Origin: Selenomonadales bacterium
Lineage (GTDB): Bacteria; Bacillota; Negativicutes; Sporomusales; UBA7701
Direction of reading: 5' to 3'
DNA length: 64,000 bases
Assembly (NCBI GenBank): GCA_029975165.1
Contig: JARKPR010000003.1
Location: 1-64,000 of the forward strand
Shown: one piece after another, positions 3,987 to 64,000 of the stretch
Layout: every line of letters begins with the position of its first letter
How positions within the stretch are numbered: position 1 is the first letter of the stretch
Translations under genes and position numbers: made by a program
The notes under the pieces: generated by a model
The model's input: only the letters and a program-made list of their open reading frames with translations
What the model was told of the DNA's origin: nothing
Databases searched by the model: none

Positions 3987-4291
3987 GCGCTTTCCTCCGC
4001 TGGCGTGGTTCCGGGATAGGTCCCGGAAACGGGCCACTTCAATAATACACACTCGCGCGGCGTTACAAGTGGTGAGGTGGGCTAAGGAACGCGGATAAAC
4101 TCCCGGAGTGGTTGCATCCGGAGGCTTCCGGCGCTATCAGGGGGGGCGGTCGGCAGTTCACCCAGGCGTCGCCGCCCCGCGAGGGGAGCTAAACCTGCCT
4201 TCATTTCGTTTCCTCCGACACCTTATCCCGTGCCGGGCCGGAAGTCGGCGACCACGGCGATCCTTCATGGATCGGCGCGAAAGGATAAGCC
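3987..4291. other. Intergenic region between divergent genes
   Basis: About 305 bases between the TPR gene and the DUF2087 gene. No convincing gene is seen. It must contain both promoters, but no clear -35/-10 pair stands out. A short palindrome CGATCC-ttcat-GGATCG lies at about 4258-4274, close to the downstream start. Confidence 0.5.
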
Positions 4292-21495: not shown

Positions 21496-21525
21496 AAAAA
21501 CCCCCGCCCGTCCTCGGGCGAGGGT
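21496..21525 (-). terminator. Terminator downstream of purL
   Basis: A stem of nine paired positions (CCCCCGCCCG against CGGGCGAGGG, one mismatch) with a four-base loop and five T residues on the minus strand. It lies beyond structured repeat copy A, so the purL transcript would carry the repeat in its 3' untranslated region. Confidence 0.8.
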
Positions 21526-21539
21526 CAAATTATAGGCAC

Positions 21540-21668
21540 GTCAGGCTGGCGAGAAAGGTCTAGATGCAAGGCGCACCGGAGGCTGCCACCGGAAACATAC
21601 ACGGGACGTACGTTGAGGATGGTAGCCGAGGAGCAACGCCGCAGATGGGCCTTTATCGCCAGCCTGAC
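21540..21668 (-). repeat. Structured 3'-UTR repeat, copy A (after purL)
   Basis: 129 bases beginning two bases after the purL stop. The ends form an inverted repeat (GTCAGGCTGGCGA-type arms, near perfect over about 21 bases). Inside, in purL orientation, are CCATCTGCGGCGTTGCTC, a middle core CATCCTCAACGTACGT and GGTGCGCCTTGCATCT. The TGC-GGCG part of the first core can pair with CGCC-TT-GCA of the last, leaving a conserved internal loop. It shares cores with copies at 43052, 63179 and, partly, 30411. Confidence 0.85.
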
Positions 21669-21670
21669 CC

Positions 21671-24600
21671 CTACCGGAAGTACTTAACCCCGGCGGCGAA
21701 CAACCCCTGCTCCTTCTCGCCCGGCACATTGACCGCCACGTACGGGCCGGTCCGCTCCGAATGGGCCATCTTGCCGAAAATGCGGCCGTCGGGGCTGGTG
21801 ATGCCCTCCACCGCGGCGACCGAGCCGTTAGGGTTGAAGCGGATGTCGTTCGACGGATTTCCGGCCAGGTCGACGTACTGGGTGGCGATCTGGCCGCCGG
21901 CGATCAACTTTTCCACCGCCGCCGGCGTGGCCACGAAGCGGCCCTCGCCGTGCGACACGGCGATCGTGTGGACATCGCCCGCTTCCGTGCCCGCCAGCCA
22001 GGGCGACAGCACCGACGCCACCCGCGTCCGCACCAGGCAGGCCACATGGCGGCCGATCCTGTTGAACGTCAGCGTCGGGTCGGCCTCGTCCAGTTCGTCG
22101 ACGATGCGGCCGTAAGGCAGCAGCCCCAGCTTGACGAGGGCCTGGAAGCCGTTGCAGATGCCGAGCATCAGGCCGTCCCGCCGCTCCAGCAGCTCGGTCG
22201 TCGCCTCGCGGACGCGCGGGTTGCGGAACACGGCGGTAATGAACTTCGCCGAGCCGTCCGGCTCGTCGCCGGCACTGAAGCCGCCCGGCAGCATGATTAT
22301 CTGGCTGCGGCCGATGGCCTTTGCCAGGGCGGCCACCGACTCCTCGACCGCCGCGGCCGTCAGGTTGCGGAAAATCAGCGTCTCGGCCTTCGCCCCGGCC
22401 TTGGCGAACGCGCGCATGCTGTCGTACTCGCAGTTCGTGCCCGGGAAAACGGGGATGATCACCTGCGGCCCGGCTGTTTTCACTGCCGGCCGCACGGCGC
22501 TGCGCCGCGTATGGCTGACGGCCGGCGGCGCGGGCGCGTCGCCCTCCTGGGCGCGGGTCGGGAAAATATTCTCCAGCGGTGCCTCCCAGGCGGCCAGAGC
22601 CTCGTCCAGCGTTATCTCCGCCCCATCCACGCTTATCACCGGCCGCTCCTGGGTTTGGCCCAGCTCGCGCCACGCCGCCCCCGCCAGGGCGGCCGCCAAA
22701 TCCGTATCGCCCGGCAGCTCCAGGACTATCGAGCCGTAGTCGGGGGCGAACAGCGCCCTCCCGTCCACGCCGGCGGCGAACGCCACGCCGATGTGGTTGC
22801 CGAACGCCATCCTGCTCACCGCCGCCGCCGCGCCGCCGTGCCTCACCGTGCCGGCGGCCAGCACCCTGCCGGCGCGGACAAGCTCGTAGACCTTGTCAAA
22901 ATTCCTTTTCAGCACCGCGAAATCAGGCAGCCCGTCCGCGCCGCGCGGCGCCGGCACGAGCACTATCCTGCTTCCGGCCTGCTTGAACTCCGCCGACACC
23001 GCCTGCCGCACGTCCAGCGGGCAGACGGCGAACGCCACCAGCGTCGGTGGCACGTGCCTATCCATGAACGTCCCCGACATGCTGTCCTTGCCGCCGATCG
23101 CCGGCACGCCCAGCTCCTTCTGGGCGCGGTACGCCCCCAACAGGGCGGCGAACGGCTTGCCCCAGCGCTCGGGGTCCCTGCCGAGCTTCTCGAAGTACTC
23201 CTGCAGCGTCAGCCTGGCCCGGCGCCAGTCGCCGCCCAGGGCGGCCACCTTGGCCACCGCCTCCACCACCGCGTACAGCGCGCCGTGGAACGGGCTCCAC
23301 TTGCCGATCAGCGGGTTGTAGCCGTACGTCATGATCGTGCCGGTCGTCGTCTCGCCCTCCGGCACCGGCAGCTTGGCCACCGCCCCCTCGGCCGGCGTCG
23401 CCTGGCGCACGCCCCCGAAGGGCATCACCACCGTCGCCGCGCCGATGCTGCTGTCGAACCTCTCCACCAGCCCCTTCTGGCTGGCGACGTTCAGATCGGC
23501 CAGGTTGGCCAGCCACGCCGCCTTCAGGTCGGCCTTGTCCCGCCCCGCCGGCGGCGGTGCGGCGAAAAAGTCGTCCTCCTCCCGGGGAGCGGCAACCCTT
23601 ACGCTTGTCCGCTGGCGGACGCCGGCCGTATTGAGGAACTCGCGGCCGATATCGACGATTGCCTTGCCGCGCCAGCGCATCACCAGCCGCCGGTCGCCCG
23701 TCACCACCGCCACCTTCGTCACCTCGAGGTTCTCGGCGTCGGCGTGGTGCGCGAATTCCGCCGCGTCGGCCGCCGCCACCACCACCGCCATCCGCTCCTG
23801 CGACTCGGAAATGGCCAGCTCGGTGCCGTCCAGCCCCTCGTATTTCTTCGGCACGGCGTCGAGGTCGATATCCAGGCCGTCGGTCAGCTCGCCGATGGCC
23901 ACCGACACCCCGCCGGCGCCGAAATCATTACACCTTTTTATCATCCTGCTCACCGCCGGGTGGCGGAACAGGCGCTGGATCTTCCGCTCGGTCGGCGGGT
24001 TGCCCTTCTGCACCTCCGCCCCGCAGCTCGCCAGCGACTCCGCGGTATGCTCCTTCGACGAGCCCGTAGCCCCGCCGCAGCCGTCGCGGCCGGTGCGGCC
24101 GCCCACCAGCAGCACCACATCGCCGGGCGCCGGCTCCTGCCGCACCACGTTGGCCCGCGGCGCCGCGCCGATGACCGCGCCCACCTCCATGCGCTTGGCC
24201 ACGAAGCCCTCGTCGTACACCTCCGCCACCTGGCCGGTCGCCAGGCCGATCTGGTTGCCGTACGAGCTGTAGCCCGTCGCGGCGGCGATCGTGATCTTGC
24301 GCTGCGGCAGCTTGCCGGGCAGCGTGGCGGCGATGGCGGCGCGCGGGTCGCCGCTGCCGGTCACCCGCATCGCCATATACACGTACGAGCGGCCGGACAG
24401 CGGGTCGCGGATGCACCCGCCCAGGCAGGTCGCCGCGCCGCCGAACGGCTCGATCTCCGTCGGGTGGTTGTGGGTCTCGTTCTTGAACATCACCAGCCAC
24501 TCTTCGCGGCGGCCGTCCACATCCACCGGCACCACGATGCTGGCCGCGTTGATCTCCGCCGACTCCTCCAGGTCGGCCAGCAGCCCCTGCCGCTTGGCCT

Positions 24601-25453
24601 CCTTCATCGCCAGCGTCGCCACGTCCATCAGGCACAGCGGCTTCTTCGCCGCCCCGTACACCGCGTCGCGGGCCGCCAGGTACTCCCCGTAGGCCGCCGC
24701 CGCCGGCGCGGCGAACCGCCCGGCCTCGATCGCCACATCCTCGATCTCGGTCATAAACGTCGTATGACGGCAGTGATCCGACCAGTACGTATCCAGCACC
24801 CTGAGCTCGGTCAGCGTCGGGTCGCGCCTCTCCGTGTCACGGAAATACGCCTGGCAGAACGCCAGGTCCTCGGCGCTCATCGCCAGGCCCATCTCCTCGC
24901 GCAGCACCGCCAGCCCCGCCGCGGCTTTAGCCGTGAAGCCGGCCAGCACCGGCACGTCGGGCGGCGTCTCGGCCTTCATCGCCAGCGTCGCCGGCTTTAA
25001 AAGCGACGCCTCCCGCGATTCCACCGGGTTGATGCAGTACGCCTTGATGCGGGCGAAATCCCCGTCGCTTATCCGCCCCTTGAGCACGATCACCTTGGCG
25101 GTCGCCACCTCCGGCCGCTCCTTCTGGGTCAGGAGCTGCACGCACTGCGCCGCCGAGTCGGCCCGCTGGTCGTACTGGCCGGGCAGGTACTCCATCGCGA
25201 ACACGCGGTCCGCCCGCTCCAGCGGAAACTTCTCGTCGTACGCGTAGTCGGCGTTCGGCTCGGCAAAGATCGTCTGGCGCGAGCGGGCATACTCCTCGTC
25301 GGATATGCCGGCCACGTCGTAGCGGTTGAGCACCCGCACCGCCTCTAGAGCGGCGATGCCCAGATTATGCCTGAACTCGTTCAGCAAGCTGCGGGCCTCC
25401 ACGTCGAACCCCGGCCGCTTCTCGACATAAATGCGCTTGACCTGATCTGCCAT
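21671..25453 (-). CDS. purL: Phosphoribosylformylglycinamidine synthase, single-chain
   Basis: Fourth step of purine synthesis, converting FGAR to FGAM with glutamine and ATP. At 1260 residues it combines the PurS-like N-terminus, two AIRS-type halves (DHCRHTTFMTEI; FKNETHNHPTEIEPFGGA; PVPEGETTTGTIMTYGYNP, read in parts) and a C-terminal glutaminase domain with the nucleophile in LGICNGFQA. Most Bacilli split this into purS, purQ and purL; large single-chain forms occur in some Clostridia and Negativicutes. AAGGAGCGTACGCC precedes the ATG. No other pur gene is adjacent. Confidence 0.96.
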   Translation of the reverse strand: MADQVKRIYVEKRPGFDVEARSLLNEFRHNLGIAALEAVRVLNRYDVAGISDEEYARSRQTIFAEPNADYAYDEKFPLERADRVFAMEYLPGQYDQRADSAAQCVQLLTQKERPEVATAKVIVLKGRISDGDFARIKAYCINPVESREASLLKPATLAMKAETPPDVPVLAGFTAKAAAGLAVLREEMGLAMSAEDLAFCQAYFRDTERRDPTLTELRVLDTYWSDHCRHTTFMTEIEDVAIEAGRFAAPAAAAYGEYLAARDAVYGAAKKPLCLMDVATLAMKEAKRQGLLADLEESAEINAASIVVPVDVDGRREEWLVMFKNETHNHPTEIEPFGGAATCLGGCIRDPLSGRSYVYMAMRVTGSGDPRAAIAATLPGKLPQRKITIAAATGYSSYGNQIGLATGQVAEVYDEGFVAKRMEVGAVIGAAPRANVVRQEPAPGDVVLLVGGRTGRDGCGGATGSSKEHTAESLASCGAEVQKGNPPTERKIQRLFRHPAVSRMIKRCNDFGAGGVSVAIGELTDGLDIDLDAVPKKYEGLDGTELAISESQERMAVVVAAADAAEFAHHADAENLEVTKVAVVTGDRRLVMRWRGKAIVDIGREFLNTAGVRQRTSVRVAAPREEDDFFAAPPPAGRDKADLKAAWLANLADLNVASQKGLVERFDSSIGAATVVMPFGGVRQATPAEGAVAKLPVPEGETTTGTIMTYGYNPLIGKWSPFHGALYAVVEAVAKVAALGGDWRRARLTLQEYFEKLGRDPERWGKPFAALLGAYRAQKELGVPAIGGKDSMSGTFMDRHVPPTLVAFAVCPLDVRQAVSAEFKQAGSRIVLVPAPRGADGLPDFAVLKRNFDKVYELVRAGRVLAAGTVRHGGAAAAVSRMAFGNHIGVAFAAGVDGRALFAPDYGSIVLELPGDTDLAAALAGAAWRELGQTQERPVISVDGAEITLDEALAAWEAPLENIFPTRAQEGDAPAPPAVSHTRRSAVRPAVKTAGPQVIIPVFPGTNCEYDSMRAFAKAGAKAETLIFRNLTAAAVEESVAALAKAIGRSQIIMLPGGFSAGDEPDGSAKFITAVFRNPRVREATTELLERRDGLMLGICNGFQALVKLGLLPYGRIVDELDEADPTLTFNRIGRHVACLVRTRVASVLSPWLAGTEAGDVHTIAVSHGEGRFVATPAAVEKLIAGGQIATQYVDLAGNPSNDIRFNPNGSVAAVEGITSPDGRIFGKMAHSERTGPYVAVNVPGEKEQGLFAAGVKYFR

Positions 25454-30405: not shown

Positions 30406-30410
30406 AGCCG

Positions 30411-30462
30411 CCCAGCAGCCTCCATCTGCGGCGTTGCTCCTCAAAACTCTTGAGGCTGCCTG
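30411..30462 (+). repeat. Structured 3'-UTR repeat, truncated copy D (after DUF4870)
   Basis: Starts six bases after the stop codon and contains the first core of the repeat family, CCATCTGCGGCGTTGCTC, but not the last core. The arm AGCAGCCTC before it can pair with GAGGCTGC of the terminator that follows, so the copy could compete with terminator folding. Confidence 0.65.
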
Positions 30463-41270: not shown

Positions 41271-41351
41271 CCCTGGATAGCCAGCAGCCGGCAGGATTAA
41301 CGCCCGCCCTGCGGAATTTGATAATATTGCCGATATGCAGGAGGTTCCCCC

Positions 41352-42071
41352 ATGCACGAAAAAGACAAGCCCCTGCTGCTCACGTCCCCGGTCATCACCC
41401 CCAGCCTGCTCGGCGAAACGGGCACCGCCCTCACCGCCGCCGACATTGCCTACCTGAAAAAGTGCGACGTCGTCCGCCACTACGCCAAAGACGCCCTCAT
41501 CGCCCGCCAGGGCGGCTACATCGACAACCTCCATTTCCTGCTCAGGGGCCTCGCCCGCGTCGTCGGCCTCGGGTCCGACGGCGCGGAACGGACCTTCCTT
41601 TACCACAGCGCCGGCTGCTTCATCGGCATCGAGGGCTTTTTCCACCGCCAGCCGGTCATCTTCGACCTCAGGATCCTCGAAGACGCCGACATCCTCGTCA
41701 TCGACCGCGCCGCCTTCGGCGACCTGCTCACCCAGAGCAACATCTGCCTCTACCTGCTCAAATCCATCGCCCTCGCTTCGCGCGTCCTCGCCCACCAGAT
41801 CGAGGACGCCGCCTTCCGCACCACCGAACAGGCCGTCTGCCGCATCCTTTACTGCCTCAGCGACGACGCCCAGCTCACCTACAAGCCCCACTTCACCCAC
41901 CAGGAAGTCGCCGACCTCGTCGGCGCCCACCGCGTCACCGTCACCCACATCCTCGGCCAGCTGAAAAAAGAAGGCATCGTCCGCGACCAGCCCCGCGGCC
42001 ACATCGCCCTCGCCGACCGCGACAAACTCCACGAAAAAATCTACGGCTGCGGCCGGACACAGGAGAAATAG
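41352..42071 (+). CDS. Crp/Fnr-family transcriptional regulator
   Basis: 239 residues: N-terminal cNMP-type sensory domain (about 30-140, IARQGGYIDNLHFLLRGLARVV, in parts GGYIDNLHFLLRG; SAGCFIGIEGFF) and C-terminal winged helix (about 170-235) with HTH text HFTHQEVADLVGAHRVTVTHI. Four Cys-poor N-terminal residues argue against an Fnr iron-sulfur sensor; the effector could be a small organic or redox signal. It is cotranscribed with lplA (5-base gap). The palindrome at 36787 is a good candidate target. Confidence 0.88.
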   Translation: MHEKDKPLLLTSPVITPSLLGETGTALTAADIAYLKKCDVVRHYAKDALIARQGGYIDNLHFLLRGLARVVGLGSDGAERTFLYHSAGCFIGIEGFFHRQPVIFDLRILEDADILVIDRAAFGDLLTQSNICLYLLKSIALASRVLAHQIEDAAFRTTEQAVCRILYCLSDDAQLTYKPHFTHQEVADLVGAHRVTVTHILGQLKKEGIVRDQPRGHIALADRDKLHEKIYGCGRTQEK

Positions 42072-42076
42072 CGCCC

Positions 42077-43051
42077 ATGCTCATCTACCGCAACCCCGAA
42101 ACCGATCCCTGCCTTAACCTCGCCCTCGAGGAACGCCTCCTCGCCGCCGCCCGCGAAGACTGCTTCATGCTGTGGCGCAACCGCCCGGCCATCATCGTCG
42201 GCCGCAACCAGAACACCGCCGAAGAAATCAACGCCACCTTCGTCAGCGACCACGGCGTCGCCGTCGTCCGCCGCCTCTCGGGAGGCGGCGCCGTCTACCA
42301 CGACCTCGGCAACCTCAACTACACCTTCGTAGCCCCCGACAGCCGCCACGCCTTCGACTTCGCCCGCTTCGCCCAGCCCGTCCTCGCCGTCCTCCGCGAC
42401 CTCGGCGTCGCCGCCGAATTCTCCGGCCGCAACGACCTCCTCATCGCCGGGCGCAAATTCTCCGGCAGCGCCCAGTACGTGCGGGGCGGCAAAGTCCTCC
42501 ACCACGGCACCCTGCTGTTCGACTCCGACCTCACCGTCCTCGGCCAGGCCCTCGCCGTCCGGCCGGACAAATACGCCGGCAAAGGCATCAAATCCGTCGC
42601 CAGCCGCATCACCAACATCGCCCCCCACCTCCCCCGGCCGCTCACCATCGCCGCCTTCGCCGCCGCCCTCGCCGACCACGTTAAAAACGCCTTCACTGGC
42701 AGCGACGCCGCCTTCGCCGCCGCCGACTACGCCGCCGCCCGCGCCCTCGTCGCCGCCAAATACGGCTGCTGGGAATGGAACTACGGCAAATCGTCGCCCT
42801 ACAACTTCAGCAACGGCGAGCGGTTCGCCGGCGGCCTCGTCGAATGCCGCCTGTTCGTCGAAGGCGGCGTCATCCGCACCGCCAGGATTTACGGCGACTT
42901 CTTCGGCGACCGCGACATCGGCGAACTCGAGCAGGCCCTCGCCGGCGTCCGCCACCATCCCGGCGCCATAGCCCGCGTCCTCGAGGCCGCCGGTCCTGCC
43001 CGCTACTTCGCCGGCATCGGCTGCGACGAACTCCTCCGCCTCTTCCTGTGA
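42077..43051 (+). CDS. lplA: Lipoate-protein ligase
   Basis: 324 residues. Attaches lipoate to carrier proteins using ATP. Family signatures: NPETDPCLNLALEE at the N-terminus, RNQNTAEEIN, VVRRLSGGGAVYHDLGNLNY, and the catalytic-lysine region GRKFSGSAQ; the C-terminal accessory domain (about 245-324) is present. AGGAG at 42061 lies within the end of the crp gene. Its natural local client would be the GcvH-like protein at 36879. Structured repeat copy B starts directly after the stop codon. Confidence 0.92.
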   Translation: MLIYRNPETDPCLNLALEERLLAAAREDCFMLWRNRPAIIVGRNQNTAEEINATFVSDHGVAVVRRLSGGGAVYHDLGNLNYTFVAPDSRHAFDFARFAQPVLAVLRDLGVAAEFSGRNDLLIAGRKFSGSAQYVRGGKVLHHGTLLFDSDLTVLGQALAVRPDKYAGKGIKSVASRITNIAPHLPRPLTIAAFAAALADHVKNAFTGSDAAFAAADYAAARALVAAKYGCWEWNYGKSSPYNFSNGERFAGGLVECRLFVEGGVIRTARIYGDFFGDRDIGELEQALAGVRHHPGAIARVLEAAGPARYFAGIGCDELLRLFL

Positions 43052-43241
43052 AACCCAGGCTCGCGATAAAGGCCCATCTGCGGCGTTGCTCCCCCCGGGC
43101 GCTATGCCGTCCATGGCGCGCCCGGGACTAGGCCCATCCAGGGCCGTCGTCGGCTGCCATCCTCAGCGTACGTTCCGTGTACGCTTCCGGTGTCATCCTG
43201 CGGTGCGCCTTGCATCTGGACCTTTCTAGCCAGCCTGGGTT
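43052..43241 (+). repeat. Structured 3'-UTR repeat, copy B (after lplA)
   Basis: 190 bases starting at the base after the lplA stop. Ends are inverted repeats (AACCCAGGCTCGCGATAAAG against CTTTCTAGCCAGCCTGGGTT, few mismatches). Internal cores match copy A: CCATCTGCGGCGTTGCTC, CATCCTCAGCGTACGT and GGTGCGCCTTGCATCT. Compared with A it has about 60 extra bases after the first core that form their own palindrome (CCCGGGCGC...GCGCCCGGG-like). Confidence 0.85.
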
Positions 43242-43298
43242 TGTCTTCAAAACACAATAAAAAGCCCCGTCCACCGGGAACCGGTCGACGGGGCCTTT

Positions 43299-63129: not shown

Positions 63130-63178
63130 TTATCATTCCTCCGTAAGTAAAGCGTCCCTCCGTCTTCTTGAACTGTGC

Positions 63179-63340
63179 GCAGGCCGTTCAGGGCCGCCAG
63201 ATGCAAGGCGCACCGGAAGGGCGAGCCGCGCCGCGTACATGGAAGTACGCAAGCAATCGCCCTGATAAGTCAGACGCACGACGCTTCAGCGACGATGCGG
63301 CCGCTTACAACGCCGCAGATGGCGGTCATCAACGGCCTGC
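63179..63340 (-). repeat. Structured 3'-UTR repeat, copy C (at the DUF523 stop)
   Basis: 162 bases. Arms GCAGGCCGTTCAGGGCCGCCA and the complement of TGGCGGTCATCAACGGCCTGC pair at 18 of 21 positions; the second arm contains the DUF523 stop codon and last codons. Cores CCATCTGCGGCGTTGT and GGTGCGCCTTGCATCT are as in copies A and B, while the arms have wholly different sequence. Middle differs (GCGTACTTCCATGTACGC hairpin). Confidence 0.8.
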
Positions 63341-63811
63341 CCCCAATATCTGCGATATCACCTCTTCGGTGAGGTCGAGTTCGGTGTATAACTGTATGCC
63401 TATTGCGGCGAGGGCAGCGGCAAGCACTCCGTTCCCTGGTATTTGGCGGTGGGTGAACGTACCGTCGTAGATGCGGCCGACGCCGCAGGAGGGGCTGCGG
63501 GCTTTGAGGATGGCGGCGGCGACGGCCTGGGCGCCGGCGAGGCGGGCGAGCTGTTCGGCGCCGCGGACGAAGGGGACGGTGAGGTCGGTGCCTTGGGGGT
63601 CGATGACTTTGGCGCGGCCGGCGAGGACGTCCGCCCCCGTGCCGCCGAGGATTTCGCACGGCTGGCGGGGGGTGGGCAGGCCGCCTAGCTGCTCGGGACA
63701 GACGGGGAGGCAGCGGGCGGCGACGCCGGGGGCGAGGAGGGACGGACAGAGGTTGTGGCCGCCGTCGTAGCGGGTGCAGAGGCCGAGGAGGCAGGCGCTG
63801 ACGAGTATCAT
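63329..63811 (-). CDS. DUF523 family protein
   Basis: 160 residues of DUF523: MILVSACLLGLCTRYDGGHN, PVCPEQLGGLPTPR, then AILKARSPSCGVGRIYDGTF. The conserved cysteines (Cys7, Cys12, Cys38, SCGVG) suggest a metal or thiol site. Related domains act in 2-thiouridine desulfidation (TudS). GGAAAGGAAACC precedes the ATG at 63811. It runs into repeat copy C at its 3' end. Confidence 0.88.
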   Translation of the reverse strand: MILVSACLLGLCTRYDGGHNLCPSLLAPGVAARCLPVCPEQLGGLPTPRQPCEILGGTGADVLAGRAKVIDPQGTDLTVPFVRGAEQLARLAGAQAVAAAILKARSPSCGVGRIYDGTFTHRQIPGNGVLAAALAAIGIQLYTELDLTEEVISQILGAGR

Positions 63812-64000
63812 TTTGGTTTCCTTTCCGGAGCGAGTTTCCTTTTCCAGATTATTCCCATGCCGGCCGGCAAAATCCTGCCGGCGGAAGAAATGTTTGTTTC
63901 GCCGGGAAACAAAAAAAGAAGCAGACGGTGCTGCTTCGGGGTTTTGCGAGCGGAGAACGCAGGCGTACTGCGCCCATGCTCCGGCCAAACGCGCCGTAGG
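63812..64000. other. Upstream region of DUF523 at window edge
   Basis: 189 bases with no supported gene. It includes a GCCGGCAAAATCCTGCCGGC-like hairpin (63859-63882) and a run of A residues at 63909-63915; the promoter of the DUF523 gene should be here. Confidence 0.4.

Follow-up and report, generated by a model that had tools for sequence, protein, structure and literature searches.

The window, a stretch of 64 kb, carries three complete copies and one fragment of a structured repeat. Copy A (21540..21670, minus strand; type I arms) consists of a left arm (21648-21670), a core (21634-21647), an inner module, a second core (21563-21576) and a right arm (21540-21562). Its first base is the base immediately 3' of the stop codon (21671-21673) of purL (21671..25453, minus strand), an open reading frame for phosphoribosylformylglycinamidine synthase that matches TIGR01857 with 1801 bits. 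Downstream of the copy, direct reading of the sequence revealed an intrinsic terminator in the form of a GC-rich hairpin followed by a T run (21496..21524, minus strand). Likewise, copy B (43052..43243, plus strand; type I), with left arm 43052-43074, core 43075-43088, inner modules, second core 43203-43216 and right arm 43217-43243, begins one base past the stop codon (43049-43051) of the lipoate-protein ligase gene lplA (41318..43051, plus strand; TIGR00545, 380 bits). Copy C (63170..63344, minus strand; type II) has its left arm at 63322-63344, its core at 63308-63321, inner modules, a second core at 63200-63213 and a right arm with tail at 63170-63199; a gene with a 2-thiouracil desulfurase domain (63329..63988, minus strand) has its stop codon inside the left arm. 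Fragment D (30406..30442, plus strand) retains the left arm and the first core (30423-30436) without a second core, and its core begins 17 nt past the stop of a DUF4870 gene.

A first-pass annotation of the window had described the four as sharing two cores and as starting at or close to stop codons. Both cores are exact and the arms are paired in copies A, B and C, but only the first core is present in D. The starts of A and B next to stop codons and the naming of purL and lplA were borne out.

Abundance, architecture and placement

The first core occurs 76 times exactly and 105 times with at most one mismatch in the 4.19 Mb genome, as compared to 0-1 matches for a reversed control pattern, and the second core gave 88 near-exact matches against none for its reversed control, which puts the repetition well beyond chance. 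We estimate that there are about 75-105 copies in this genome and tens in each sister species, and the 77 copies with both cores were extracted for analysis. Each copy is laid out as left arm, core CATCTGCGGCGTTG, interior, second core GTGCGCCTTGCATC and right arm, with a total length of about 75-290 bp, and the cores are enclosed by an outer stem of about 17 bp whose sequence varies. The cores are 21 to 240 nt apart, a range that results from an interior composed of a handful of hairpin modules joined at fixed points. An interior of 85 nt is identical in three copies whose paired arms differ, so the modules are exchangeable. Type I arms are of the form CAGGCTGG... and a type I tail like TTTGTCTACAAGC recurs at the end of the element, hence the ends are not as wholly inconstant as had been claimed. 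One contig in another genome (G018:C1) contained four equal-scoring copies at 22909, 48657, 74405 and 100153, spaced by exactly 25,748 bases, reflecting either repetition of a 25.7 kb segment in tandem or an artefact of the assembly.

With regard to gene context in this genome, 36 copies are located between codirectional genes, 17 between convergent genes and none between divergent genes, while 16 are reversed. Divergent gaps hold 2 of the 61 copies in the sister genomes. The orientation relative to the preceding gene had been described as the same for the copies in the window, but 16 of the 77 copies are oriented opposite to both flanking genes. The stop codon is located within 30 nt of the core in 47 of the 55 sense copies, so that the arm begins only a few bases past the stop. 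The most common placement is 0-6 nt past a stop codon or beside an intrinsic terminator, and six genes terminate within the left arm of a copy. A test based on open reading frames only yielded 37 copies at stop codons versus 3.6 expected in this genome and 14 versus 0.5 in other phyla; relative to the 3' intergenic space these enrichments are overstated, since the random points covered more than that space, but a narrow peak remains. A copy in the genome G403 lies directly 3' of the end of a tRNA and upstream of a gene for a small SRP RNA, which indicates that the placement rule concerns the 3' ends of genes and that stop codons are not the sole case. The 3' end of purL bears some structured element in five species: a type I copy in this genome, a type III copy in G004, and the TwoAYGGAY RNA in G001-G003 (loci L136, L094 and L157).

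Orientation was also compared with GC skew. Within this genus, the strand first annotated coincides with the C-rich strand for 87 of 119 copies, and for 72 copies against 16 where the absolute skew exceeds 0.1. The bias extends to the copies that run against their genes (18 to 6), and the genes themselves are unbiased (0.49). Only 11 of 33 copies at Geobacteraceae-type loci are on the C-rich strand, and the bias is therefore not claimed for the whole family. Single strands exposed at replication forks are the mobile form of IS200/IS605 elements and attC sites. By analogy, the bias in the genus would fit single-strand mobility at replication forks, which we take as a lead only. The skew domains switch several times along the chromosome. 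In G001 (contig C1, 1.85-3.24 Mb, loci L101-L140) and G004 (contig C4, L141-L152), the sign of the skew flips in blocks of approximately 100-500 kb across which gene orientation is mostly unchanged, and one flip is approximately orthologous in the two genomes.

Pairing of the outer stem and the folding strand

The first-pass annotation had claimed that the outer arms differ between copies and yet pair in each of them, and the whole family agrees. Pairing energies were -28.1 kcal/mol for a copy's own arms versus -17.2 kcal/mol for swapped arms, and none of 10,000 permutations reached the observed value. The 77 copies have 1036 paired positions, as compared to at most 846 in 2000 shuffles. The corresponding values for 65 copies from the sister genomes were 910 and at most 698, a comparison somewhat favoured by the selection of these copies for at least 10 paired positions. 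In an alignment of 46 copies, changes on both sides were observed at 25 of 40 pairs, and the covariation score was 0.324, versus 0.126 after shuffling (0 of 500 replicates) and at most 0.163 in slid controls. Compensatory changes, as expected of a structured RNA, exceed both types of control. Another genus of the order provided an orthologous site shared by three species, downstream of a gene for a membrane protein that is putatively YitT-like; three pair changes were identified there, and all were compensated and none uncompensated. We conclude that the outer stem is kept paired by compensatory change. Some core pairs covary as well (TGC/GCA to TAC/GTA), the internal loop at the cores is constant, and a T.C mismatch at pair 8 persists in 35 of the 77 copies. 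A lack of further copies or unpaired outer arms had been named as grounds for rejecting the family; both were examined and neither was found.

Mismatches in the outer stem were counted on the strand as first annotated, which is the mRNA strand of sense copies. A.C mismatches outnumbered G.T pairs by 99 to 18 in this genome (53 to 18 by unique context), by 68 to 9 in the sister genomes (36 to 9) and by 40 to 10 elsewhere in the class, with the limitation that related copies are not independent. The asymmetry was weak in the Geobacteraceae set (21 to 14), and the inner modules displayed the reverse stability preference. Since A.C on one strand corresponds to G.T on the other, the fold of the opposite strand is the one that is tolerated, and this strand is probably, albeit not provenly, the one that folds. 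The description of the family as a structured RNA of the 3' untranslated region is upheld with respect to a covarying stem at gene 3' ends, but not with respect to the strand, and roughly one copy in five has the reverse orientation.

Taxonomic range and signs of mobility

A covariance model built from the family matched 66 of 380 genomes of the class, representing 35 of 102 genera, as well as 71 of 146 genomes in the class to which a Geobacteraceae bin belongs and, within the phylum Omnitrophota, 16 of 145 genomes. The copies are often located directly past stop codons. A scan with the exact cores had pointed to one genome each of Geobacteraceae, another deltaproteobacterial lineage, Myxococcota and Omnitrophota, which contain 26, 7, 2 and 6 copies, respectively. 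All four are metagenome bins in which single contigs may be misbinned, but the matches in many genomes of the Geobacteraceae bin's class and of Omnitrophota weigh against misbinning as the general explanation. One contig labelled Paludibaculum (JARKQJ010000244.1) contains two copies, one of them a near-perfect example of the genus type (129 bits), and is probably misbinned.

No matching Rfam family was found at relaxed thresholds (E <= 0.5), neither for the copies scanned from this genus nor for those in other phyla. Within the window, a COG3860 RNA (RF02940) at 4147-4200 on the plus strand (74 bits) is the single hit to Rfam that exceeds the gathering score; TwoAYGGAY RNA (RF01731) is also found from about window position 63976 onward (L004:2169-2321). 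A literature search with the core sequence retrieved no paper. However, a 2009 account of Geobacter metallireducens presents 24 unnamed "predicted short RNA elements" with the central palindrome GRCGTAGCGCTGCTACGCC (PMC2700814, Figure S1), described as intergenic and multicopy, with one copy between co-transcribed genes; the alignment covers one species, and similar sequences are mentioned in two other Geobacter species and Desulfotalea. Because GRCGTAGCGCTGCTACGCC is also present in the inner hairpin of two Geobacteraceae copies (L319 and L323), it is likely, though not proven, that the two families are the same. In its accessible part, that account reports neither covariation nor a rule on stop codons, and mentions no target duplication and no broader distribution. 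The family can thus not be called new, being present in other phyla and probably noticed in part before, but it is not characterised in the searchable literature.

The first-pass annotation had also stated that the repeat is not a transposon. This is contradicted by duplicated flanks, empty orthologous sites and swapped inner modules. Eleven copies in three genomes (five of seven in the genus g2, four in this genome and two in G001), nearly all of type I, are flanked by direct duplications of 21-32 bp, nearly always comprising a hairpin. These duplications are exact or nearly exact, with local scores of 18-31 as compared to a 99% point of 9-10 in the controls, and represent the target-site duplication expected of a MITE. 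Type I copies are often found next to intrinsic terminators. The duplicated hairpins are mostly terminators, and the right-hand copy is followed by a T run where it was read. The same search around type II and III copies, which are located at stop codons, yielded none above the control, so insertion is shown directly only for the terminator copies of type I and by the empty sites. In comparisons of orthologous sites between species that are 15-20% diverged, clean empty sites were identified for L013 and L016, and a hairpin without a core for L073. The arms are the same and the interior exchanged at L018/L131, and in part also at L063/L105, while copy C is inverted as a whole in G004. The empty sites could also have arisen by loss.

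Candidates for a mobilising partner were searched for in several ways. RAYT (Y1 transposase, PF01797) is absent from this genome, which is 96% complete, and from G003 and G005 despite many copies, and reverse transcriptase (PF00078) is absent from G001, G003, G004 and G005; both were rejected as partners since their presence is not consistent across genomes. A search of the extracted loci for autonomous relatives, with cores 331-5000 nt apart, found none in which arms that pair convincingly flank a gene: L121 consists of a couple of independent, degenerate copies, and L130 is a chance partner of a normal copy. Composite-looking pairs of inverted copies in the genus g8 (L170, L193 and L197) enclose a gene for a transketolase subunit, as judged from the translations. 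A search for plasmid and phage carriers gave no match.

Origin and possible role of the repeat

In our judgement, the family is probably a dispersed, non-autonomous mobile repeat, similar to REPs and MITEs, with a single-stranded fold that is under selection. A trans-acting enzyme would recognise the fold of one strand, probably the one opposite to that first annotated, in the form of single-stranded DNA or RNA, and would insert copies at gene ends; selection would subsequently remove copies from harmful positions. The inserted hairpin would then belong to the 3' end of the mRNA and may influence the termination of translation or decay, as do the REPs of E. coli. An insertion preference alone does not, however, explain the exactness of the stop-codon placement. 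More speculatively, and with considerable doubt, the family may represent a mobile class found across phyla, in which transposition reads a single-stranded hairpin, targets stop codons and terminators and is coupled to the strand asymmetry of replication, with an enzyme that is neither RAYT nor reverse transcriptase.

The exact placement at stop codons in several phyla, and the stop lying no more than 30 nt from the core in 47 of 55 sense copies, would be accounted for if the repeat were a functional, REP-like RNA of the 3' untranslated region whose stem stalls terminating ribosomes or blocks 3'-5' exonucleases, with mobility being secondary. The arms retained by compensatory change at orthologous sites and the structured elements, of one kind or another, at purL ends in five species also point in this direction. 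According to two articles that cite Liang 2015 (PMC12306157, PMC5082802), E. coli REPs located within 15 nt of a stop codon stall ribosomes, which makes the same effect plausible here, for either orientation, and a role at mRNA 3' ends possible by analogy. Yet the mRNA strand tolerates A.C over G.T, the opposite of what is expected of an mRNA hairpin, 16 of 77 copies are reversed, and the copy is missing at some orthologous sites of sister species. We regard this explanation as rather unlikely. Even less probable is a small RNA encoded antisense to the abutting gene and spread by mobility. The wobble asymmetry does favour the antisense strand, which is also the strand matched by the TwoAYGGAY RNA at the purL site of sister species, but the 3' end of such an RNA would lie against the stop codon and has no terminator, and direct reading, as opposed to a systematic scan, revealed no promoter common to the copies at the 5' end; the inner modules do not have the same asymmetry.

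Covariation may also arise without any selection on the fold, if one arm is rewritten from the other by template switching in the course of repair. Quasi-palindromes are corrected in this manner in bacteria, and the arms are long inverted repeats. Such a neutral origin is nevertheless improbable, since specific mismatches stay uncorrected (T.C at pair 8 in 35 of 77 copies), the mismatches are strand-asymmetric and the internal loop at the cores is constant. The location after stop codons, the folding of the opposite strand and the variable stem and terminal structure are reminiscent of the folded recombination sites of integrons, but the copies are single and scattered over contigs past core genes such as purL and lplA, and no conserved R or L box was noticed by eye at the ends. 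With cassette arrays lacking, an identity as attC was rejected, and we give a site of this type hardly any credence. A mobile repeat with a selected fold thus remains the reading that we favour. If so, strong stem covariation among dispersed repeats can reflect the fold of a mobile element and not regulation of the preceding genes, which calls for caution.

The repeat, with copy numbers per genome that reach about a hundred, is distributed over Negativicutes, Geobacteraceae and their class, and Omnitrophota; it has no entry in Rfam, yet is found past the stop codons of core genes. The placement rule and the hairpin-sized duplications make both the moving enzyme and the effect of a hairpin directly past a stop codon testable. 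MITEs and ERIC-type repeats are short and non-autonomous, with internal inverted repeats. The terminal repeats of MITEs are constant within a family, whereas the outer arms studied here vary and covary, and the duplication of 21-32 bp comprises a whole hairpin. REP elements are dispersed extragenic palindromes, some directly past stop codons (PMC12306157, PMC5082802), as in E. coli, where the distance is often at most 15 nt, and in Pseudomonas, and the present family shares these features. It differs from them in being much longer (at least about 75 nt) and modular, with hairpin-sized target duplications and a genome that lacks RAYT, and the information profile of its left flank contains no tetranucleotide like the GTAG/GTGG at the 5' foot of REPs. 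Finally, TwoAYGGAY RNA is likewise a multicopy structured element of the same genus, located at the identical purL site in three sister species, but the present copies have no match to RF01731 (E <= 0.5) and differ in core and loops. One inner module of the family contains GTCCATG loops similar to those of TwoAYGGAY RNA.
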